In this document: piece after piece, positions 2,829 through 21,524 of the stretch
How positions within the stretch are numbered: position 1 is the stretch's first letter
How the letters are laid out: every line of letters starts with the position of its first letter
IMG/VR virus record: IMGVR_UViG_3300027733_000229
Coordinates: 1-21,881 of that record
Strand: one strand, 5' to 3'
DNA length: 21,881 nt
Source: a virus
Made by a program: the position numbers and the translations under genes
The notes under the pieces: model-generated
The model's database searches: none
The model's input: only the letters and a program-made list of their open reading frames with translations
Told to the model about the DNA's origin: nothing

Positions 2829-3093
2829 GATCTTCAATTGTATATGTTGTTTTTATTTTTACAAGCTCAAATTCTAAAAAATTTTCATTGCCATAATTTG
2901 GGGTATTGTTAAATGCACTTCTTTTTAAGAACAATTCCAAATAATTTTTATTTCCTACAATTAAACAATCTTTAAAATCTACCAATTCTATTATTGTTAC
3001 GGTTAATTCCAAATCATCATTTCCAAAACTAACCCATTTATGTGTAGGTTTATGAAAAATTGCGTACTTGTATTCTTCAAATGTTTCATTCAT
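2821..3093 (-). CDS. Hypothetical protein, 90 aa
   Basis: The protein starts MNETFEEYKYAIFHKPTHKW. The strand-like pattern (LTVTIIELVDFKDCLIVGN, then FELVKIKTTYTIED) suggests a small beta-rich domain. It overlaps the phosphoesterase gene upstream by 8 bases and the next gene by a few bases. No membrane segment, no recognised motif. Confidence 0.7.
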   Translation of the reverse strand: MNETFEEYKYAIFHKPTHKWVSFGNDDLELTVTIIELVDFKDCLIVGNKNYLELFLKRSAFNNTPNYGNENFLEFELVKIKTTYTIEDHE

Positions 3094-3748
3094 AATTTTT
3101 TAATTCTATATTTCCTCTATCATCTATCAAAGCGTAGGTGATCGGTAAATCACATTGGGAACCTAAATTAACACATTCTATACCTCCTACATAATACTGT
3201 TTAGGAACGTGTGTGTGACCAAAACAAACTGCATCATATTTGTTATTGTAACAATACTGAGCAATTCTTACGGTCAAATCGTGTGCTGCTCCGTGCCATG
3301 TTTTGATTTTGGTTTTAAGTTTTCTTGTGAGTTTTTGTTTTTTGTCGATCTTTTGTAGGATATAATATATACCAGAAGCTAGTTCAGTCAATAAAGGTTT
3401 TGTGGTAATAAAGAAATCAAATTTGTCTCCATGAGTAAACAAAATTCTTTTCTTATTAATTTCTTGTGCATATTCATCTACAAATTCAAATCCAAGAAGT
3501 GCTGAAATGGTTTCCAAATCTTTATCGTGGTTTCCTTTAATGAAGATACATTTCTTATCTTTGGATATTCTTCTTAATGTAGAAAGAACCTTCCATTGTT
3601 TCTTACAAAGTCTATGAATATTATAACTATCCAACAAGTCTCCACATATCACAAGAGTATCGTATGTTTCATTTTCTAGTAAATGAAGAGTCAAACTTGC
3701 TTGACATATTGGACTACCTAAATGTAGGTCAGATAATGCTAGAATCAT
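3086..3748 (-). CDS. Calcineurin-like metallophosphoesterase (LpxH-like fold)
   Basis: I place the start at 3748 (MILALSDLHLGSP) because this ATG overlaps the TGA of the upstream gene at 3747-3745 (ATGA); a start at 3793 would add 15 residues with no family support. From 3748 the protein is 220 aa. All metal-binding motifs of the superfamily are present in order: DLH at 7-9, GDLLD near 36, GNHD near 72-75, HGD near 106-108 and GHTH at 177-180. The overall layout resembles UDP-2,3-diacylglucosamine hydrolase-type enzymes, which cleave phosphoester or pyrophosphate bonds with two metal ions. In a phage the substrate could be a nucleotide, nucleic acid or envelope precursor; the sequence does not tell. 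A basic stretch (KKQKLTRKLKTKIKTW) in the middle could contact nucleic acid. Confidence 0.85.
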   Translation of the reverse strand: MILALSDLHLGSPICQASLTLHLLENETYDTLVICGDLLDSYNIHRLCKKQWKVLSTLRRISKDKKCIFIKGNHDKDLETISALLGFEFVDEYAQEINKKRILFTHGDKFDFFITTKPLLTELASGIYYILQKIDKKQKLTRKLKTKIKTWHGAAHDLTVRIAQYCYNNKYDAVCFGHTHVPKQYYVGGIECVNLGSQCDLPITYALIDDRGNIELKNYE

Positions 3749-4014
3749 ATATTCCAAGTTGTGGTGCAAATTGTATCGCCACATTGTTCGCATTCATGAT
3801 CATCATATTCATAGTCGTCATATTGGAACAATTCAACAACGCTTTCAAATTGAATAGTGTTTTCTTTAATTCCTTCTTTTATCTTTCCTAGTAAATAATC
3901 TAAAATCTCTTCTTGTTTTTCTGATGAAATATCAGATATGGGTTCTTCGTTTACATAAAACCCAAAGGCGGTACAACCAGTTACTTGTTCGATTTTGTAT
4001 TTAGTTTTTTCCAT
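3745..4014 (-). CDS. Hypothetical protein with C-terminal Cys motif, 89 aa
   Basis: The protein starts MEKTKYKIEQVTGCTAFGFY. A helical, acidic middle part leads to a C-terminal motif with three cysteines (CEQCGDTICTTTWNI) preceded by Asp/Glu/Tyr/His-rich sequence (DDYEYDDHE). The CxxC followed by another Cys and the nearby His suggest a small zinc-binding knuckle (inference). It is coupled to the phosphoesterase gene through ATGA. Function unknown. Confidence 0.7.
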   Translation of the reverse strand: MEKTKYKIEQVTGCTAFGFYVNEEPISDISSEKQEEILDYLLGKIKEGIKENTIQFESVVELFQYDDYEYDDHECEQCGDTICTTTWNI

Positions 4015-5410: not shown

Positions 5411-5627
5411 AGTTTTTTCTTGATAGTAAAATTGCTTTATTTTTAAATAATTCTGCTTCCCTACAATCGTCATATTCTCCATAGTACCATTCTCTTTTAA
5501 ATGGACCGCATACTTCTATTTGTTTTGTACCAATAGGAACAGCATACCCACCTTCGTAACCATCTACGAGTACTAGTGTTTCTGGATCTATTTTTCGTAA
5601 TACTTCAATTAGTTCTTTAGCTTTCAT
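5400..5627 (-). CDS. Small conserved-looking phage protein, 75 aa
   Basis: The protein starts MKAKELIEVLRKIDPETLVL. The pattern 'ELIEVLRKIDPETLVLVDGYEGGY' is typical of a widespread family of short phage and bacterial proteins of unknown role, in which a helix leads to a strand ending 'DGYEGG'. It overlaps the RNA ligase gene upstream by 11 bases. No catalytic motif visible. Confidence 0.75.
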   Translation of the reverse strand: MKAKELIEVLRKIDPETLVLVDGYEGGYAVPIGTKQIEVCGPFKREWYYGEYDDCREAELFKNKAILLSRKNYVF

Positions 5628-6696
5628 AATTTTGATTTATAAGTTTTGTCCATTGTTCTTTTGTTATTATTTTACCATCTAAAATACAAAATACAAATGA
5701 AGAATTTTCTTGGAAATTTCTTTTGATCATTTCCGCTTGTTCTTTTCTTGTTTCTACTGTTCTTATATCATGCACTACTTCTAAGATATGATCAATATAT
5801 TTTTTTGATTTCTCTCCTGCTTCGCAAATTTTTTTTAATTCATCCTTTAATTGAACTGCAATCTCATAATCAAATTCTGTTTCAATTGTTTTATAAAAAT
5901 TATCATAAGATGGCATTTCCTTTTCTATATAAAAATCAATAAGGTTCTTGGTAGAATTAAGTTGGGATTTAATTTTATGTAGAAGAAGATAACGATCAGA
6001 CTTGGTTTTTTTGAGTATCTGCCCATTATTACCGTAAATTACAATTCCTTCCCCTTTTTTCCATTGATTAACCGATTCAATCATAGAATAAAGTGAATTA
6101 AACCGATATCGAATAGGTCTTTCTATTTTCCAATCAGTAGCAAATATATCTAAATCGTTTTGTAATACATAGGAATAATCATCATGTTTTATCACACCCG
6201 TAAGCCAAATTGTTGGTTCTTCTGCTTCTCTTTCAACTATAATGTTTTTAGGAGAATACCATTCGCAAACAATTGAATATTTCTCGTTATTCAAAATATT
6301 ATTATCAAAAATTAAAGGATATTTTTGCTTCAAAAAAGAAATTTCATCACCATTATCTAATATAGTTGCATCATGAGTTCCTCTTGTTCTAACAATTAAT
6401 TCTCCTTTAAATTTTGAAACAATCAGAGTCGATCCATCTAGTTTGTGAACAAACTCAATATCAGAATCAGTATCGAGTGGTTCAAAATCTAATTGTTCTC
6501 CGAGATTTGTGAATTTTTTCCATGAGGCACTAACCAATTTTCCATCTTTAGTCCAAATAGAAGAACGGAATATTTTATTCTCATCATTCCATTTAATATC
6601 ATGTTTAATAGGAAATATTAGTACACACTCAGTATTTCCAATAACACAATCTCTGATACAAAATTCTTCCAAAGAAGGGAAATTTTTAATATTCAT
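5617..6696 (-). CDS. RNA ligase, T4 Rnl1-like
   Basis: This 359-residue enzyme carries the nucleotidyltransferase motifs of ATP-dependent RNA ligases. Motif I is KLDGS at 85-89, with Lys85 as the predicted AMP-accepting residue. A 'KKFTNLGE' segment at about 60-67 matches the KFFN-x-GE block upstream of motif I. Motif III-like 'SIVCEWYSP' lies near 141-149, motif IV is EGIVIY at 216-221, and motif V is ILKKTKSDRY at 227-236. The C-terminal third is helical, as expected for Rnl1-type ligases with a tRNA-recognition domain. Such enzymes join 5'-phosphate and 3'-hydroxyl RNA ends, classically repairing tRNAs cut by host anticodon nucleases. Here it is one of two ligases in the window. It begins the minus-strand block just left of the homing endonuclease. 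No kinase/phosphatase partner is visible within the window. Confidence 0.88.
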   Translation of the reverse strand: MNIKNFPSLEEFCIRDCVIGNTECVLIFPIKHDIKWNDENKIFRSSIWTKDGKLVSASWKKFTNLGEQLDFEPLDTDSDIEFVHKLDGSTLIVSKFKGELIVRTRGTHDATILDNGDEISFLKQKYPLIFDNNILNNEKYSIVCEWYSPKNIIVEREAEEPTIWLTGVIKHDDYSYVLQNDLDIFATDWKIERPIRYRFNSLYSMIESVNQWKKGEGIVIYGNNGQILKKTKSDRYLLLHKIKSQLNSTKNLIDFYIEKEMPSYDNFYKTIETEFDYEIAVQLKDELKKICEAGEKSKKYIDHILEVVHDIRTVETRKEQAEMIKRNFQENSSFVFCILDGKIITKEQWTKLINQNYES

Positions 6697-6749: not shown

Positions 6750-7826
6750 ATGAAACATAATGATACTATTAAATGCGAGATATGTCAAGGAATTTTTAAA
6801 AACCGTAAGGCATCTTTCAACAAACATCAAAAAATGTGTAGTAAATTACAAGAAAACAAAAATAATATTATTATTGATTATTCTTCGGGAATCTCATCTT
6901 GGAAAATAGCCAAAAAATATAAAATAAATTCTTTTTTCATAAGAAAATTGCTAAAAAAGAATGGTTTTTTAAATTTGGATTCTAGGAATAAAGTAAATAG
7001 AGATTTTTTTAAAAATAAAACAAATGAAATGTTTTGGCTTTTGGGGTTAATAGCTTCGGATGGTTGTATTTATAATAAAAGAACATGGGGAATAACACAA
7101 AGCGGAAATGACGGTAAAAAATTAATAGAATACATAAAAAAAATTTTAAACCACTCAAATAAAATAAGCTGTTTTAAAACAATCGGAGAAAATGCTTATT
7201 CTATTAAAATTTCTTCTTCGGAAATGATTTGTGATTTAAAAAATATTTATAATATAAACGAACGAAAGACAAAAGATTTAAAATTTAATATTAAAATTTT
7301 TAAAAAAAACGAAGAATACTTTAAATCTTTTTTAAGAGGATATATAGACGGAGACGGATGCGTTGGTGTTTATCATAATGGAAAAGGGATAAATACACTC
7401 AATATAGGATTTGTAGGAAATAAGGAATATATTGAAGAAATTGAAAAACATATAAAAATTAAATACAGTAGTAAATCGAAATTAAAAAATGTATACCAAA
7501 TAGTTTGGTATGGAGAAAATGCCGTAAGATTTGGATCTTGGTTATATTCTAATAATTCTTTATATTCGCACTATAAAAAAGAAAATTTTTTTAATTATAT
7601 AAATGGAAATGATATTCCAAATTGGTCTAGTTATAATAACATTTATTTAAATGTAAAAGATAAATTACATTCTGAAAATATAATGAAACTGTCCAACGAA
7701 TACAACATAGCATTTCAAACGCTATATAAATGGAAAAATGATAATAAAAATTACAATATAGAAAAAATAGGAAATTTTTATTTTAAATCAAATAAAAATC
7801 CAACCCACAAAATGTATTTGGAGTAA
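6750..7826 (+). CDS. LAGLIDADG homing endonuclease with N-terminal zinc finger
   Basis: This 358-residue protein holds two LAGLIDADG blocks on one chain: FWLLGLIASDG (95-105) and FLRGYIDGDG (194-203). The acidic residues D104 and D202 are in the catalytic positions, so it should act as a monomeric site-specific double-strand endonuclease. The N-terminus has a Cys9-x2-Cys12-x13-His26-x3-Cys30 zinc knuckle, then an HTH-like segment (SSWKIAKKYKINSFFIRKLL), both likely DNA-binding. The C-terminus has another HTH-like part (NEYNIAFQTLYKWKND). It lies on the plus strand in an otherwise minus-strand block, is very Asn/Lys/Ile-rich, and is followed by its own terminator. These are signs of a mobile gene. 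No intron or intein boundary is visible, so it looks free-standing. Confidence 0.88.
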   Translation: MKHNDTIKCEICQGIFKNRKASFNKHQKMCSKLQENKNNIIIDYSSGISSWKIAKKYKINSFFIRKLLKKNGFLNLDSRNKVNRDFFKNKTNEMFWLLGLIASDGCIYNKRTWGITQSGNDGKKLIEYIKKILNHSNKISCFKTIGENAYSIKISSSEMICDLKNIYNINERKTKDLKFNIKIFKKNEEYFKSFLRGYIDGDGCVGVYHNGKGINTLNIGFVGNKEYIEEIEKHIKIKYSSKSKLKNVYQIVWYGENAVRFGSWLYSNNSLYSHYKKENFFNYINGNDIPNWSSYNNIYLNVKDKLHSENIMKLSNEYNIAFQTLYKWKNDNKNYNIEKIGNFYFKSNKNPTHKMYLE

Positions 7827-7890: not shown

Positions 7891-7969
7891 ATGAAGTAAA
7901 TAAAAAATATGCTATGCTAAAAATTACTAAAATTAAAAATGCTAGTATTTTTTTATTATTCGTTTTCAT
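7889..7969 (-). CDS. Candidate 26-aa membrane peptide
   Basis: The frame reads MKTNNKKILAFLILVIFSIA and then YFLFTS. A short basic N-terminus precedes a single hydrophobic span, the layout of many phage membrane peptides. It starts within the last codons of the 72-aa gene (overlap 14 bases), as do other small genes here. Because it is very short and AT-rich sequence readily encodes hydrophobic residues, it may be chance. Confidence 0.4.
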   Translation of the reverse strand: MKTNNKKILAFLILVIFSIAYFLFTS

Positions 7970-8174
7970 TCGCTATATAATATAGTCCTTCGTCGATTAT
8001 ATATCGATCACATTCTTCTTTTGTACCAACAAAAAGATTTTCTTGTGTTGAAGTAATACCAATCGATTCAAATATTGTTATCACGTTTTTATCATTGTCA
8101 AATATTAAATGCCAAAGACCATTTTGTTCTTCTGTGCTAAATGACCAGTTGTTTGCATTTTTTTGTATAATCAT
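7956..8174 (-). CDS. Hypothetical protein, 72 aa, following the adhesin-like gene
   Basis: The protein starts MIIQKNANNWSFSTEEQNGL and ends YYIANENE. It is acidic, with a strand-rich N-terminal half and a C-terminal helix (KEECDRYIIDEG). Its ATG comes one base after the stop of the large beta protein, so the two are surely co-transcribed. It might be an assembly factor for that protein, but nothing in its own sequence shows this. Confidence 0.7.
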   Translation of the reverse strand: MIIQKNANNWSFSTEEQNGLWHLIFDNDKNVITIFESIGITSTQENLFVGTKEECDRYIIDEGLYYIANENE

Positions 8175-8175
8175 A

Positions 8176-9735
8176 TTATGTAATTACCGATAAAGTTGAT
8201 GTTGTCGAATTATAAGATGCTGTTCTACCAGAAGCATTTTGCAATGTAACAGCGGGATACAAGTTAACAGTTCTTGCTGGTAGTAAAATGAATGAATCAC
8301 CAACAATTGGAGGAGTTGTAAAATTAACTGTCAAAGCGGTTCTAGAAAATTGAGCAAAATTTACTTTATTAGAAGGATTGGATGACAAAGCATAATTTAT
8401 TAATGTTCCAGCAGATATTGCAGTAAACCCTGTATATCTTGGACCAACACCTAAAGCTGTACTACCAGAAAGAGTTAATGTTTGGGATCCTATTTTAGTA
8501 AGGTTGATATTACCAGAAATACTTCCAGTATATGTTGAACTACCACCTGTATTATTTAATGATAAATTAGCAAACGTTGAAGAGTTATTAAAGATATTAT
8601 TTCCCAATACGTTACTAAAAGGTGTTCCTGTTGTAATACTTAAACGATTAAAGATTTGATCGTTTCCATTCAAATCAATTCTACCATGCAGAAACGTGCC
8701 ACCAAGTATAGGAAATCCTAATGTTACAATATCATTATTAATAGCAAGAGGAACATCTGTTCTTAAGGTAGTTCCTAATCGTACGGCATTAAATTTATTT
8801 CCTGATACTGCTACGACTACATTAACAGAAGTTCGATCAGCATATATACCAGAGCTTGTTGGATGATCAAAAATAATAGGGTTAGAGCTTAAAACCAGCG
8901 TTCCTGTTTTGGCTGATCCTATATTACCTAATATTCTAAATAAAGTACTCATTGTCGGCAATCCAGATATACCACCATTAAACGTTAAAGTGGCATTATT
9001 ATCTATGTTAATACTATTAACTAAACTTGTAGGACCAATGGTAACTAAACCATTAATTGTTGCGGATTTTAGTGCGGTAATAGGATTTCCGCCATTTACA
9101 AAAATTGTATTATTAATAATTGTATTTGTTGCTATTGAGCTTCTAAGTACCCTAAAAGTAGTATTAGTAGAAAGATTTACAGTTCCTGTTCCAAACGGGT
9201 CGCTATTTCCAATCTCAATAAATCCAGCACTTATATATGTATTTCCAGTATAGGAATTATTACCACTTAATGTTAATGTTGCCGATCCTGTTTTTGTTAG
9301 TGTACCAAAACCACTTATCTTACCATTAAGAAAAATAGCAGAAGTTGCACAATTTATCGTACAGTCACCAAAAGCTACAATATCACTATTAATTGTTTGT
9401 ATATTTATAGAACTATTTGATACACTACCAGAATTTAAAATTAATCTATTTCCATTTAATCGAAAAGCTCCTGCACTAGAATTAAATGTTATTCCTTTAT
9501 ATGGAACATCGTTAGTATTATTAAACGGTGTTAATCTTGTTGTTCCCGAAAATTCAAAACTTTCATACGCTTGTGGTGGTCTTGTATTCCAGTTGGAAGG
9601 AATAGTCCAAATATCACTAGAACCTAATCCTGTCCAAATAATGGTAGTTGGTAATTGTGGTACACTACTCGTAATAGGAATAGAACCAAAAAATGCCTTA
9701 GCGAATATTTGAGATTTTCCGTATATTTTAACCAT
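8176..9735 (-). CDS. Large beta-rich surface protein with autotransporter-type repeats (candidate tail fibre/adhesin)
   Basis: This 519-residue protein is dominated by Ser, Thr, Asn, Gly and hydrophobic residues in strand-turn patterns typical of a right-handed beta-helix or beta-solenoid. Residues 34-50 carry the motif 'WTGLGSSDIW' then 'SNWN', and two copies of an autotransporter-associated repeat follow: 'GTLTKTGSATLTLSGNNSYT' then 'GNTYISAG' (about 144-171), and 'INLTKIGSQTLTLSG' then 'YTGFTAISAGTL' (about 410-446). In bacteria such repeats form the passenger domain of secreted adhesins; here there is no signal peptide and no C-terminal translocator barrel, so it is more likely a virion surface protein. 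A late-promoter-like octamer lies just upstream. Receptor binding or adhesion is an inference. Possible relatives include large-phage head or tail decoration proteins. Confidence 0.8.
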   Translation of the reverse strand: MVKIYGKSQIFAKAFFGSIPITSSVPQLPTTIIWTGLGSSDIWTIPSNWNTRPPQAYESFEFSGTTRLTPFNNTNDVPYKGITFNSSAGAFRLNGNRLILNSGSVSNSSINIQTINSDIVAFGDCTINCATSAIFLNGKISGFGTLTKTGSATLTLSGNNSYTGNTYISAGFIEIGNSDPFGTGTVNLSTNTTFRVLRSSIATNTIINNTIFVNGGNPITALKSATINGLVTIGPTSLVNSINIDNNATLTFNGGISGLPTMSTLFRILGNIGSAKTGTLVLSSNPIIFDHPTSSGIYADRTSVNVVVAVSGNKFNAVRLGTTLRTDVPLAINNDIVTLGFPILGGTFLHGRIDLNGNDQIFNRLSITTGTPFSNVLGNNIFNNSSTFANLSLNNTGGSSTYTGSISGNINLTKIGSQTLTLSGSTALGVGPRYTGFTAISAGTLINYALSSNPSNKVNFAQFSRTALTVNFTTPPIVGDSFILLPARTVNLYPAVTLQNASGRTASYNSTTSTLSVIT

Positions 9736-9970
9736 ATGTATATTTACACAATTTATTTTTTCTATGGTTTCTCCACTCTCTTCTATATTTTATAATCCAA
9801 TCAATTAGAGCAGTACTGTAACCAATATCATATCCTTTTTTTTCACTTTCCAACCATTTATGTTTTAATACTTCTTCTCTTTCTTCCAAGAATTCTCTAT
9901 AAATTAATGAATTAGTGTAAAAATCTTTTTTTTGTGTCAATGCTTCCACTATAATATTTATCATTTTCAT
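9728..9970 (-). CDS. Small conserved-looking phage protein, 80 aa
   Basis: The protein starts MKMINIIVEALTQKKDFY. The motif 'LKHKWLESEKKGYDIGYSTA' followed by 'LIDWIIKYRREWRNHR' has regularly spaced Trp, His, Glu and Arg. I recognise it as a short uncharacterised type found in phages and bacteria, but no function is known to me. Its ATG overlaps the TGA of the phosphoesterase gene upstream (ATGA). The end overlaps the start of the adhesin-like gene by 8 bases. Confidence 0.7.
   Translation of the reverse strand: MKMINIIVEALTQKKDFYTNSLIYREFLEEREEVLKHKWLESEKKGYDIGYSTALIDWIIKYRREWRNHRKNKLCKYTYG
9741..9748 (-). promoter_or_regulatory. T4-late-promoter-like octamer before the adhesin-like gene
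   Basis: On the minus strand TGTAAATA matches seven of eight bases of TATAAATA and ends five bases before the ATG at 9735. It lies inside the 3' end of the gene upstream, allowing late expression of the surface protein separate from the upstream genes. Confidence 0.4.
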
Positions 9971-10680
9971 AACTCAACATTCCCCCAAATTTCATTAATA
10001 TCCAAAAGTTTATGCACACAACCATTCACTCGTTCAGTCCAAGAACTATGAAAATGTCCATATAGATGAAGTCTTGGTTTACATATCTTACAAATTTCAT
10101 CCATTATTGCTCTTTCATCAGTAAGATCTTCAATTAGATAAGCATCTTCATTTGCCCACCCATAAACCAATTCATTAAATTGTTGTGGAAAACACCAAGA
10201 AGGAGCAGTATGAGTTACGAGAATATCTACTTCTTTGCATTTTTCCCTATCAAATTTAACTATTTCATCTTCCCAATAAGAGCGTCCTTCGGTTCTAGAT
10301 GTTCTATCTATAGAAACAGCACCACCAATGAATTGAATTTTTTTACCATTATATTCCATTACGGTATAATCTTCTATTAACTCAAAATTACTTAAAGAAA
10401 CTCTGTTAAGTCCTTGAAAATGAGATGGGTCATCATGGTTTCCCCGGTTCGCCATAAAGATAATATTTCTATCTTTAAATTCTATATTGAGCCATTTATT
10501 ATTTTTTTCTTGAGTCTTCTTATCAGTAAATCCAATTCCAGAATCCCCAACGCTAATCAAATAACAATCACCTATTTTTTTAGTATCTAAAATATCAAGA
10601 AGATATGACCATTCTCCATGATGATCTCCCAAGAATAAAATCGGTTTGTTTTTGTTTAATGTTTTTATATTACCATTCAT
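9967..10680 (-). CDS. Calcineurin-like metallophosphoesterase
   Basis: The 237-residue protein has the full metallophosphoesterase set: GDHHG at 18-22, VGDSG at 44-48, RGNHDD at 79-84, VTHTAP at 155-160 and YGHFH at 207-211. These bind two metal ions for phosphoester hydrolysis. It is shorter than PPP-type protein phosphatases but shares their 'GDxHG' opening (here GDHHG). The substrate cannot be read from the sequence. It overlaps the upstream gene by 11 bases and the downstream one by ATGA, in a set with the HNH endonuclease. Confidence 0.87.
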   Translation of the reverse strand: MNGNIKTLNKNKPILFLGDHHGEWSYLLDILDTKKIGDCYLISVGDSGIGFTDKKTQEKNNKWLNIEFKDRNIIFMANRGNHDDPSHFQGLNRVSLSNFELIEDYTVMEYNGKKIQFIGGAVSIDRTSRTEGRSYWEDEIVKFDREKCKEVDILVTHTAPSWCFPQQFNELVYGWANEDAYLIEDLTDERAIMDEICKICKPRLHLYGHFHSSWTERVNGCVHKLLDINEIWGNVEL

Positions 10681-12751: not shown

Positions 12752-13453
12752 TCATTGAATTTGTTTATTTTTAATTAAATTATTCCATTCTGCAATTTGT
12801 TGATTTGGATTTGCCTTTAATGGTTGAACTGTATTTGAAGATGTTTTTGGCAATTGCATTTTATTAAGATACGCCTGTAATAATTTTTCAGTTTCAGGAC
12901 CAGAATATTTAATATTTATACCATTAATAATAGATGGTACATTTGAAGACATAATTTGTTGTGCTGTAAGTCCTCCGGAACCATACTTTTGTTTAATTAG
13001 CTCTTTAACCACCCAAAATTTTGAATTTTGTATTGTGTCAGAAGTATCATATTTATTTCCTGTTATTGCTGTATATGCAGCATTATATACTGGATTTTCA
13101 TATATATATTTTGGATCATTAATTCTTTGAGTATTTATGGTTGGTGTAGAATTTGTATTTTGATTGTTTATAGATTGATTTAAACTATTTGCACCAGAAG
13201 CAGCTAACCCCGCCATTATAGCTGCGGTAGTAGCATTTCTCTTAACGCCTTTAGCAACACGTTCTCCAGTTTCTCTAAATCCTTTACCTACAGCTTCAAC
13301 TCCTTTTTTTGCTATGTTTAATAAATCACCAAGTTTTTCTTCTACTATTGCCTGTTCTATTTCTTCTAAAGAATATCCTTCAGACAATAAAAATTGTTTA
13401 ATTTGAATTAATTCGTATGCATTTTCTAACAATAAAGAATCTTTTGTTTTCAT
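12752..13453 (-). CDS. Candidate internal (packaged) virion protein with T4-like capsid-targeting leader
   Basis: I place the start at 13453 (MKTKDSLLLENAYELIQ), because an ATG at 13489 would run into the preceding gene (stop at 13473) and because a late-promoter-like octamer lies seven bases upstream. From there the protein is 233 aa. The leader resembles T4 internal-protein capsid-targeting sequences (MKTYQEF-type), and L8-L9-E10 fits the (I/L)-x-E cleavage rule of the T4 prohead protease. A second block 'EEKLGDLL' (38-45) and a hydrophobic, Gly/Ala-rich, basic part ('KKGVEAVGKGFRETG', 'ATTAAIMAGLAASG') follow, then a soluble Asn/Gln/Thr-rich C-terminal part. The same leader plan occurs in the protein at 19184-19699. 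Packaging and ejection are inferred. Confidence 0.7.
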   Translation of the reverse strand: MKTKDSLLLENAYELIQIKQFLLSEGYSLEEIEQAIVEEKLGDLLNIAKKGVEAVGKGFRETGERVAKGVKRNATTAAIMAGLAASGANSLNQSINNQNTNSTPTINTQRINDPKYIYENPVYNAAYTAITGNKYDTSDTIQNSKFWVVKELIKQKYGSGGLTAQQIMSSNVPSIINGINIKYSGPETEKLLQAYLNKMQLPKTSSNTVQPLKANPNQQIAEWNNLIKNKQIQ

Positions 13454-13460
13454 TTTAATA

Positions 13461-13468
13461 TACTTATT
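13461..13468 (-). promoter_or_regulatory. Late-promoter-like octamer before the candidate internal protein
   Basis: On the minus strand AATAAGTA matches six of eight bases of TATAAATA and ends seven bases before the ATG at 13453. It shares the AAGTA core with the site before the u-spanin gene. Weak alone, supported by the repeated arrangement. Confidence 0.3.
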
Positions 13469-13472
13469 ATAT

Positions 13473-13811
13473 TTATTTACAAAATTCACTTAATTTTATT
13501 ACCACAAGACCGATTATAGATAAAAATATACCAACAATTGTCATTAAGTTAAAATTGATATTGAAAAATATAAAAGGTATTAATACTCCAAATAAAGTAG
13601 CAGATACCTCCCAAATTAAATCTATAAAATATATACTATTATAGTTTGAATTTTTAATTAAAAGATACCATCCAGACATTGAAAGGATAGATGCCATATA
13701 ACCAAAAGCATAACCTTTGTATTCATGTAATCTTATAGCATCGTTATAAGAAATTAAAACAAATATGATATTTGCTATTAAAAATAAAATAAAAGATATT
13801 AAATATATCAT
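13473..13811 (-). CDS. Four-span membrane protein, 112 aa
   Basis: The protein starts MIYLISFILFLIANIIFVLI. Four hydrophobic segments are visible, at about residues 2-20, 34-52, 62-85 and 89-107, separated by short polar turns. Size and layout resemble small EmrE/DMT-type transporters, especially the last span ('VGIFLSIIGLVVIKL'), but also multi-span holins. Lacking conserved residues that I can match, I leave it as a membrane protein. Its ATG overlaps the TGA of the upstream gene. The u-spanin is about 1.3 kb upstream in the same strand run. Confidence 0.72.
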   Translation of the reverse strand: MIYLISFILFLIANIIFVLISYNDAIRLHEYKGYAFGYMASILSMSGWYLLIKNSNYNSIYFIDLIWEVSATLFGVLIPFIFFNINFNLMTIVGIFLSIIGLVVIKLSEFCK

Positions 13812-15995: not shown

Positions 15996-16411
15996 TGGTG
16001 GAGATGAGGGGAATCGAACCCCTGTCTTTATAATATCCTCTAAAAGATACTACATGCTTTAATGTATTTAATTTATAAGGTATCTTGGCACATTAACCAA
16101 CCTTGATGTTTTAAAGTTACAACAAACTCCGTAATTTTTTTTACATGATTTCTAACAGATCGTCAAAACCTCTGCAATTCAAAACGGATTTAGAGGATTA
16201 CCGTTAGGCTTCAAGCGGCGAGAGCGCAGTACTCTTCTTCAACGCCACCGAGGAACTCGTCAGCATTGTTGAAGATGTATTCAGCTTCGGCTAAAAGATC
16301 AGACATATCTTCGTCTGCATTTAGTTTTTTGATAGAATATTAAAGAGGCCAACTATCATCCTCTACATGCACTTTTAGGTTTCAACTATAAATCGAAACC
16401 AGTACACCCCC
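15996..16411 (-). ncRNA. ssrA: tmRNA (transfer-messenger RNA) with a 35-residue acidic tag ending YCALAA
   Basis: A complete, non-permuted tmRNA of 416 nt. The 5' end GGGGGTG pairs with CATCTCC before the encoded CCA. The D-like region (CTGGTTTCGA) and T arm (AGGGG-TTCGATT-CCCCT) match bacterial tmRNA, as does the conserved AAGCATGTAGTA before the T arm. PK1 is visible: AGAGG/CCTCT with GATAG/CTATC, ending 12 bases before the resume codon, the expected spacing. Downstream, AACGG/CCGTT with CCTCT/AGAGG forms another H-type pseudoknot. The A-rich lead AAAAAACTAAAT precedes resume codon GCA (16318-16316). The tag frame runs to TGA at 16213-16211: it opens ADEDMSDLLAEAE and closes GGVEEEYCALAA. 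It has 35 residues, 11 acidic and none basic. The ALAA end should direct tagged products to ClpXP-type proteases; the rest is unusual. tmRNA rescues stalled ribosomes with SmpB, presumably the host's. Confidence 0.93.
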
Positions 16412-19183: not shown

Positions 19184-19699
19184 TTATTTATTTAATTTTA
19201 CTGCACCCTTACTTCCAGAACGAACCAATCCTGTTCCTGCTGCTTGAATTGTTCCAGATTGTTGTAAATGTTTTTTAAAAGTATTGAACAAATCTTGTTT
19301 TAATGCATCGGTGTCCTGTATACCTAATCCTAAATTTTTAACGTCTCTTACGACACCAGTTAACATACTATTTAAATATTGTGTCAATCTTTGTCCGGTG
19401 TATTGACTATCTACTTCATTTCTTTTTTTTGAAAGTTCTCCTTGTTTTATTTGTTGATCTTTATATGATTGTAATGAACGAGGATCTTGTCCCTTTGCTC
19501 CTGCAACAGCACCAATTCCCATTTGTTTGGCTTTAGAAAATCCTTTTTGTGTGCCAATTACAGCTTTTTTTGCAGCACCACCAATTCCTCTAACCACATC
19601 ACCACCCATGGTTTTTAAAAATGAACCTAAGTCTTCGTCTAATTGTTGTTCAATTACTTTGTTATAGGCTTCGTTTAATAAAATATCATCTTTTTTCAT
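19184..19699 (-). CDS. Candidate internal (packaged) virion protein with T4-like capsid-targeting leader
   Basis: The 171-residue protein starts MKKDDILLNEAYNKVIEQQ. L8-N9-E10 before Ala fits the T4 prohead-protease rule (I/L)-x-E, and the leader resembles T4 internal-protein capsid-targeting sequences. It continues 'DEDLGSFLKTMGGDVVRGIG', 'GAAKKAVIGTQKGFSKAKQM': a Gly- and Lys-rich, mildly hydrophobic segment like the protein at 12752-13453, which shares 'LLxE(N)AY' and 'ExLGxxL' at comparable positions. The rest is basic, Gln/Lys/Gly-rich and soluble. A full TATAAATA octamer sits six bases before the ATG, as expected for a late virion gene. Packaging and delivery into the host are inferred. 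Confidence 0.7.
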   Translation of the reverse strand: MKKDDILLNEAYNKVIEQQLDEDLGSFLKTMGGDVVRGIGGAAKKAVIGTQKGFSKAKQMGIGAVAGAKGQDPRSLQSYKDQQIKQGELSKKRNEVDSQYTGQRLTQYLNSMLTGVVRDVKNLGLGIQDTDALKQDLFNTFKKHLQQSGTIQAAGTGLVRSGSKGAVKLNK

Positions 19700-20345: not shown

Positions 20346-21524
20346 ATGAGCATTAATACAAACTCAAAACAAACAAAACAAGAACAAGTATTGTCCCTAC
20401 ATAAAAAGGGAAAATCTAACACCGAAATATCAGAAATTTTGGGTGTACCAAGGTCAACCGTTTTCGATTGGATTACTGGTAGGAAACGAACCACGAAGGT
20501 AAAAACTACTATAATCGAAGAAGAATCTTCATATGATGAAAATGACAATCGAGTTGATATTATTACAGAACAAGAATCTGAACAACCAGAATCGTTTCCC
20601 TTCATTTCTAATTTTTCAAAATTTGATGAACAAAAAATCAAAGAAATTTTGACGAATATCAAAGCTGTTCAATATCCTGCACCACCAAGACCGAGAACAT
20701 ATTTTGAACCAAATAAAATAGCTCTTGTTATTGGTGATACTCATTTTGGGGTTGAGTGTTGGAATACTCTAGATATTTTTCTACAAGTTGTAGATGAGCT
20801 TAAACCACAGAAGGTTATTCTAAATGGTGATACGGTTGATATGTTATCGATCAGTCGTTATTCAAAAGATCCTCGTCACACGCATACTTTGAACGATGAG
20901 ATTTTGGCATATCATAAATTTTTAAAAATTTTACATGATATTACAGAGCCATATCAAACAGAGATTTTAGAAACTAATGGAAATCATTCGGGAAATGGCG
21001 TAGAAGGTCGCTGGTGGCGTTATATCTCTTCCAGTGACGATATTAAGCAATTACTATGTATTCCTGCTATTGCTAATAACCTTTCATATTCAAAGGTATT
21101 CCATCCACATGAAAGTTGGTCACGAATTAAATTGATTGAATCCAATGAAGATGAGGAATCTATTGTTGAACTTCCAGATGATTTGTTTGTTCTTCATGGA
21201 GATGTTGTAAGAAAAAATGGTGGGTTTTCTGCAAGAGGAACATTCGAAAAACGATATGCTTCAACTATCACAAATCATACTCACAGAATTGGTTCTACCT
21301 GCCAAAGAATTCCTCGTATTGGATCTCGTCCAGATCAAATTATTAAAAATTATGAAAATGGATGTGCATGTAAATTGAATCCAACTTATGTTTCAGGTGC
21401 TAATTGGCAAAATGGTTTTTCCATCGTTAATTACACCGAAGATGTAACCGGAGTGGAAACGGTTGTTGTTCATAATAAGAGAGCAACTGTTTGTTCCCTT
21501 AACAAAACAATTAGAGTTAGTTAA
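20346..21524 (+). CDS. HTH-metallophosphoesterase fusion protein
   Basis: This 392-residue protein is one of only two clear plus-strand genes. Residues 11-48 form a helix-turn-helix of the transposase/homeodomain type ('KKGKSNTEISEILGVPRSTV' then 'FDWITGRK'). An acidic linker (50-100) leads to a calcineurin-like phosphoesterase domain: GDTHFG at 130-135, NGDTVD at 160-165, NGNHSG at 211-216, HGD at 284-286 and HTH at 311-313. The domain pair suggests an enzyme directed to DNA, for example a nuclease or a phosphatase acting at a bound site. Similar phosphoesterases occur widely in phages without assigned roles. Two strong terminators follow the stop. The upstream region has TTGACA at 20311 but no well-spaced -10. 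Confidence 0.85.
   Translation: MSINTNSKQTKQEQVLSLHKKGKSNTEISEILGVPRSTVFDWITGRKRTTKVKTTIIEEESSYDENDNRVDIITEQESEQPESFPFISNFSKFDEQKIKEILTNIKAVQYPAPPRPRTYFEPNKIALVIGDTHFGVECWNTLDIFLQVVDELKPQKVILNGDTVDMLSISRYSKDPRHTHTLNDEILAYHKFLKILHDITEPYQTEILETNGNHSGNGVEGRWWRYISSSDDIKQLLCIPAIANNLSYSKVFHPHESWSRIKLIESNEDEESIVELPDDLFVLHGDVVRKNGGFSARGTFEKRYASTITNHTHRIGSTCQRIPRIGSRPDQIIKNYENGCACKLNPTYVSGANWQNGFSIVNYTEDVTGVETVVVHNKRATVCSLNKTIRVS

Follow-up and report, generated by a model that had tools for sequence, protein, structure and literature searches.

The receptor-binding parts of phages decide which bacteria get infected, and they are hard to recognise in uncultivated phages. PATR is the passenger-associated repeat of autotransporters. 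The type Va autotransporter passengers (pertactin, IcsA, Ag43 and the PATR/TIGR02601 proteins) have the same PATR repeats and predicted beta-solenoid as the protein studied here. Two kinds of phage parts are also close to it, namely the beta-helix tailspikes, such as those of HK620 and Pam1, and the Tfa-like chaperone pairs, in which a small gene lies directly behind the fibre gene, a position matched by the partner gene described below.

Modules consisting of a tail fibre and its cognate chaperone are described for Alteromonas A5/V22 as common to unrelated phages (PMC10579305). There, as here, a fibre gene and the gene that accompanies it recur in unlike phages. Bacterial adhesin-like repeats in viruses, also as here, have been described as beta-solenoid (FhaB) proteins in Ostreococcus viruses (PMC12906663) and as YadA-type tail fibres in marine phages (PMC3909814). 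Compared with these two types, the present module is different in that it combines PATR with a cap and a partner gene. Tail-fibre/chaperone modules and solenoid tailspikes are already known; a PATR solenoid that comes with a cap and a partner of its own appears to be a new variation on them.

The window, i.e. the whole stretch of DNA that was analysed, is a phage fragment constituting a virus record of 21,881 bases. The sequence-only reading of this DNA had noticed autotransporter-type repeats and a W-x-G...W...NW motif in a phage gene, and both were recovered. The open reading frame was confirmed (Table 1). PATR (PF12951; 48.6 bits, E 8e-13, cut-off 27) was the sole Pfam family above cut-off in the 519-aa product, and both of the two repeats exceeded the cut-off. 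TIGR02601 (autotrns_rpt) of NCBIfam also matched (1e-9). The motif was WTGLGSSDIWTIPSNW, and its three W were invariant in all six aligned sequences, the window protein among them.

Pfam listed PATR matches in all 41 family members scanned, and an autotransporter barrel neither in these nor in the window protein. No signal peptide was seen by eye in the first 30 residues of the window protein. The window protein differed from the type Va autotransporters in the barrel, in being viral and in having a cap and a partner gene that were met in viral contigs only, and it may also differ in the signal peptide. PHROGs at E 0.01 gave no match for the window solenoid protein or the 72-aa partner. The N-terminal ~29 residues are presumed to be an attachment segment. 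The solenoid gene overlaps the upstream gene by 8 bases, and this overlap was kept in the same-locus relatives. It thus behaves as a member of an operon and not as a chance frame.

Table 1. Features of the solenoid gene and its partner in the window
Feature	Position	Strand	Basis or remark
Predicted tail-tip adhesin of 519 aa with PATR repeats and beta-solenoid	8176..9735	-	ORF, Pfam, AlphaFold2 model
N-terminal ~29 residues, MVKIYGKSQIFAKAFF...	9649..9735	-	conserved in same-locus relatives; low model confidence
W-x-G...W...NW motif, residues 34-49, N-terminal end of solenoid	9589..9636	-	
PATR repeat 1	9220..9300	-	44.7 bits
PATR repeat 2	8401..8502	-	29.1 bits
Beta-solenoid body, about residues 80-449	8389..9498	-	model and alignment
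C-terminal cap domain, residues 450-519	8179..8388	-	most conserved part in close group
72-aa partner gene, directly downstream of solenoid gene	7956..8174	-	family search

The structure of the window protein was predicted by AlphaFold2 with 41 family sequences (pLDDT 82.3, pTM 0.81). The model showed a beta-solenoid, as a ladder of short strands, and a C-terminal cap domain with a pLDDT of 79 at residues 451–460 and of 93–96 from residue 461. Residues 1–30 and 331–380 were poorly determined, the latter being the least confident part of the model. The alignment represented 39 of the 53 clusters described below (two of them by five-hundred-residue parts) plus L060 and the second copy in L009; the 14 other representatives stood outside it on account of length, doubtful start, fragmentation or the deletion in L052. 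A model from three sequences was discarded as too weak (pLDDT 52), and its PDB match list was mostly noise.

The 102 PDB chains ranked highest by Foldseek were re-aligned to the model. The autotransporter-type chains 2iou_G (Z 13.5), IcsA (12.9), TibA and Ag43 (12.6 each) and the phage tailspikes Pam1 (12.2) and HK620 (10.3) were among the matches, and a lactobacillus SRRP, lyase-like proteins, an antifreeze protein and an S-layer entry were also in the top rows, which were tied within about 1 Z, a score that repeats inflate according to the tool's own warning. Entry 2iou is a pertactin-Mtd complex, with chain G, as judged from its length, being pertactin and not Mtd. Foldseek alone gave no PDB match at E <= 0.001 for the 41-sequence model. 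The best viral fold match in BFVD was A0A6J5M3L0 (E 9.4e-4, probability 1.00, TM 0.44), a protein likened by its fold and known by its database name only, 'Autotransporter-associated beta strand repeat [uncultured Caudovirales phage]'.

The window protein is thus a predicted beta-solenoid, as the sequence-only reading had expected of a structure prediction. The HK620 and Pam1 tailspikes share the solenoid fold predicted for the window protein, and many solenoid relatives share their tail-gene context. On the other hand, neither a common sequence family with these tailspikes nor an enzyme family was found, and the visible tail cluster does not include the window copy.

The partner gene was used to find further members. 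Its relatives in the window group were 78–96% identical to the 72-aa window partner, and a first scan with the latter found 8 loci. An alignment of the broader partner family found 140 IMG/VR stretches (stretches, not distinct loci), 80 of which were kept as loci and tested together with the window. The small partner ORF was present in 80 of these 81 loci, L088 having a remnant only.

In 74 loci, the small gene was adjoined upstream by an ORF that was 60 aa or longer, and these ORFs formed 53 clusters at 90% identity. An HMM that had been refined on these same loci detected the cap in 73 of the 74, and one based on only the window group did so in 37. The 74th was L052, in which the small gene is fused to a solenoid fragment. 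A PATR HMM match at E < 1e-3 was found in 68 of the 74, and the solenoid and partner genes overlapped by four bases in 56. The six remaining small genes (L083, which belongs to the L044 record, L101, L107, L116, L124 and L126) followed a cap tail only. That of L116 was only six residues, and L107 is itself an internal-deletion remnant. Among 1,694 ORFs, only four further cap matches were found; three of them were cap tails from these six loci, and the fourth was a second copy in tandem. Solenoids lacking the partner were those of the near-identical L062 and L064 and the second copies in L073 and G002. As a separate observation, natural deletion remnants of the module were located at 3861–4004 in L107, 3217–3465 in L052 and about 3942–4037 in L088.

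The cap and the partner were found side by side in diverse phage contigs, and in viral contigs only. In the partner family members scanned, E 0.067 was the limit that neither Pfam nor PHROG matches surpassed. This places the small partner outside the known chaperone families of these two databases, unlike the Tfa-like pair. The same absence of a Pfam or PHROG family of note separates it from the Alteromonas A5/V22 chaperones (PMC10579305), and the chaperone role of the partner is putative. The cap and partner pair would provide a sequence handle on receptor-binding parts in the 140 viral stretches.

The gene preceding the solenoid was readable in 63 loci; left out were ten loci in which the solenoid starts at the contig edge, and L052. 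In 34 of the 63, the preceding gene ended in a motif like the Pfam phage tail tip domain, and its overlap with the solenoid gene was usually 4 bases. The other 29 were without this end by the pattern, which missed the very similar ending in L089, and the ORF start was probably wrongly placed for L111, L133 and L138 in this count. Scanning of 45 chosen from these 63 preceding genes gave nine matches to Collagen and nine to Phage_tail_C. Tail-fibre or minor-tail PHROGs matched 9 to 11 of the 45, partly via collagen repeats.

The solenoids of four relatives were also searched against PHROGs. That of L073 matched a tail-fibre PHROG (E 0.001), and the other three gave no or weak matches. The solenoid of G005 forms the C-terminal end of a longer protein (825 aa, weak PKD match), whose cluster contains baseplate wedge genes and, three genes away, a tail collar fibre gene. 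In L025, the solenoid follows an ORF that we read as YadA-head-like repeats, and which PHROGs places in an unnamed family. Since many relatives lie beside tail genes, the proposal of the sequence-only reading that the solenoid protein binds a host or another surface is likely.

The terminases of L044, L088 and L052 were 98.4–99.5% identical, and a single terminase-side locus had different occupants in the three contigs. L044 contained the solenoid end and the partner. L088 contained a propeller-like protein (so called from our reading of the repeats), and its partner was reduced to the end. L052 contained a second propeller-like protein, 37% identical to that of L088, together with about 50 solenoid residues and the partner end; PHROGs found nothing for this protein.

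The first 32–39 residues of the L088 protein were ~50% identical to those of the L089–L091 solenoids (E 7e-7 to 9e-5 in this small set). A tail-fibre-like gene preceded the L088 protein and each of the three solenoids, and the terminase-side remnants likewise followed such genes. Because the L088 protein and the L089–L091 solenoids share their first residues, one N-terminal segment carries different outer ends. We took this as the strongest sign of the solenoid being a receptor-binding end. Solenoids joined to different N-termini were found in other relatives. Swapped ends, for which the sequence-only reading had proposed to compare related phages, were thus seen among relatives in both arrangements: the solenoid on different N-termini, and one N-terminal segment with the solenoid or another domain.

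We interpreted the solenoid gene and the 72-aa gene as a two-gene phage tail-tip module, with the window copy as a putative extra or alternative adhesin on the same virion, and we consider this fairly likely. The module is probably an exchangeable host-gripping part, made up of a tail-tip adhesin with its assembly partner. The solenoid would hang from the tail fibre by its N-terminus, and its fast-changing middle (see below) would contact the host surface, perhaps glycans. The small partner may bind the cap and help in folding or in closing the tip, in the manner of the chaperones whose genes follow those of other tail fibres.

The free-standing copy and the modular solenoid would also fit a decoration of the virion or a fibrous head/neck appendage, which perhaps sticks to particles or mucus and is not a receptor-binding tip. 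This is improbable, for genes of tail fibre, collar and wedge are among the neighbours of the relatives, and the terminase-side remnants come after tail-fibre-like genes.

The surroundings of the window copy are different from those of the tail-side copies. The window encodes a protein of the PHROG annotation 'RNA ligase and tail fiber attachment', endonucleases, two tRNAs and a tmRNA. Accessory genes surround both the window copy and its same-locus relatives, and no tail cluster is visible around the window copy. The gene was found in the same place in five contigs, in full in G001–G004 and as the last 82 residues only in the 4.6-kb L026. G003 and G004 were identical over the 17.5 kb compared, and the same-locus lineages are therefore fewer than the contigs. 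In G002, a tail-like cluster starts about 18 kb from the same-locus copy.

The tail-type N-terminal segment of L088–L091 was rejected as a candidate in the window protein, since 27 of 200 shuffles scored as well. A T4-type late promoter, TATAAATA, was likewise rejected. Seven occurrences were found against 5.9 expected, and 37 of 100 shuffles had at least as many.

In an alternative reading, the window copy is not on the virion. Recruited from the tail module, it would be made during infection as a protein that is free or at the cell surface, for example to block the adsorption of other phages. The accessory-gene neighbourhood kept in G001–G004 and L026, the distance of the tail-like genes in G002, and an N-terminus that does not score as a tail segment would all agree with it. 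However, the window copy shares its cap and partner gene with the tail-side copies, and with no export signal seen by eye, its arrival at the cell surface would be unexplained. We consider this reading unlikely. As a part of the tail-tip module, the window copy, which stands alone outside the visible tail genes, would most likely be an additional or alternative adhesin of the virion.

Divergence along the gene was uneven. In the six-sequence alignment, identity to the window was ~0.45 at residues 231–300 versus 0.82 at residues 450–519, and residues 176–360 were the most divergent stretch of the solenoid. Synonymous identity varied less along the gene than protein identity. This suggested that the contrast between 0.45 and 0.82 is mostly due to constraint on the protein.

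G002 contains a second solenoid copy, which is 62% identical to that of the window and has another N-terminus. A 30-codon stretch of the two G002 copies was 96% identical in DNA, versus 74% overall. Together with the presence of two copies in one contig, this would be expected if the stand-alone copies were spare cassettes, a reservoir from which tail-tip copies are rewritten by gene conversion. The runs of identical silent sites, on the other hand, were not clustered in the G002 pair (p 0.33 and 0.26), and the smallest p values among 15 pairs were 0.041 and 0.064 by the two measures. Gene conversion between copies was rejected, and the spare-cassette explanation appears very improbable.

In the 20 of 31 plasmid matches listed, only residues 118–282 of the window protein were matched, with 30–53% identity, and the matched proteins were bacterial and mostly of the autotransporter-repeat type. 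Two scans of one genome from each of 84,980 prokaryote species, which rest on short peptide patterns, confirmed no relative. Of the domain exchange with bacteria that had been suggested, the likeness of the PATR part to plasmid proteins stood; a recent exchange did not, as the cap and partner were met in viral contigs only. The 30–53% identity of the PATR part to bacterial proteins would fit a recent capture from a bacterial autotransporter. Such an event is extremely unlikely, given that the cap and partner were met in viral contigs only, that the pattern-based scans of prokaryotes confirmed no relative and that the module is spread widely in phage contigs. By its repeat and predicted fold, the module links bacterial autotransporter solenoids to phage tails.

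When six module-protein queries were compared by tblastn with 50,697 phage records, four gave no match. One query matched a Salmonella phage record of 1.8 kb that has no annotation (2e-8), and the match of another, to Vibrio phage Va1, was non-significant (E 0.5). At tblastn sensitivity, the module is thus nearly absent from these records. Searches of an open-access literature library turned up no account of a phage tail module built on PATR. The module may represent an undescribed and widespread receptor-binding module, defined by an autotransporter-type PATR solenoid, a phage-specific cap, a cap-recognising partner of ~70–110 aa that nearly always accompanies it, exchange as a unit with propeller-like tips, and extra free-standing copies that act as alternative adhesins; taken as a whole, this broader proposal is tentative and somewhat doubtful.

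Several other features of the window were observed. Between the module and the RNA ligase lies a gene at 6750–7826 (+), a PHROG endonuclease that we read as homing-like. It was 100% identical in L026 and absent from the match list of G002, and G003 has a different ORF, GIY-YIG-like by our reading, at this site beside the partner. The RNA ligase (5617–6696, -) was 47% identical to that of G002 versus 97% to that of L026, and the other genes common to the window and G002 were mostly 55–95% identical. This suggests that the RNA ligase of the window may have been locally replaced.

The tmRNA (15996–16411, -; Rfam RF00023, 126 bits) lies next to tRNA-Glu and tRNA-Tyr and encodes a tag of 25 residues, which is longer than the usual tmRNA tags. 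An N-terminal tag of about MxxKDxILLExxY was found on unlike proteins in the window (12752–13489, -, and 19184–19699, -), G003 and G006. It was present in 13 of 289 ORFs of five contigs, mostly in G003, against 0.85 expected by shuffling. By analogy with T4, internal virion proteins could carry it as a leader that serves in targeting or is cleaved off. Finally, the 22 kb fragment contains three phosphoesterase-like genes, at 3086–3793, 9967–10680 and 20346–21524, the first being recognised by reading only and the other two by PHROGs.
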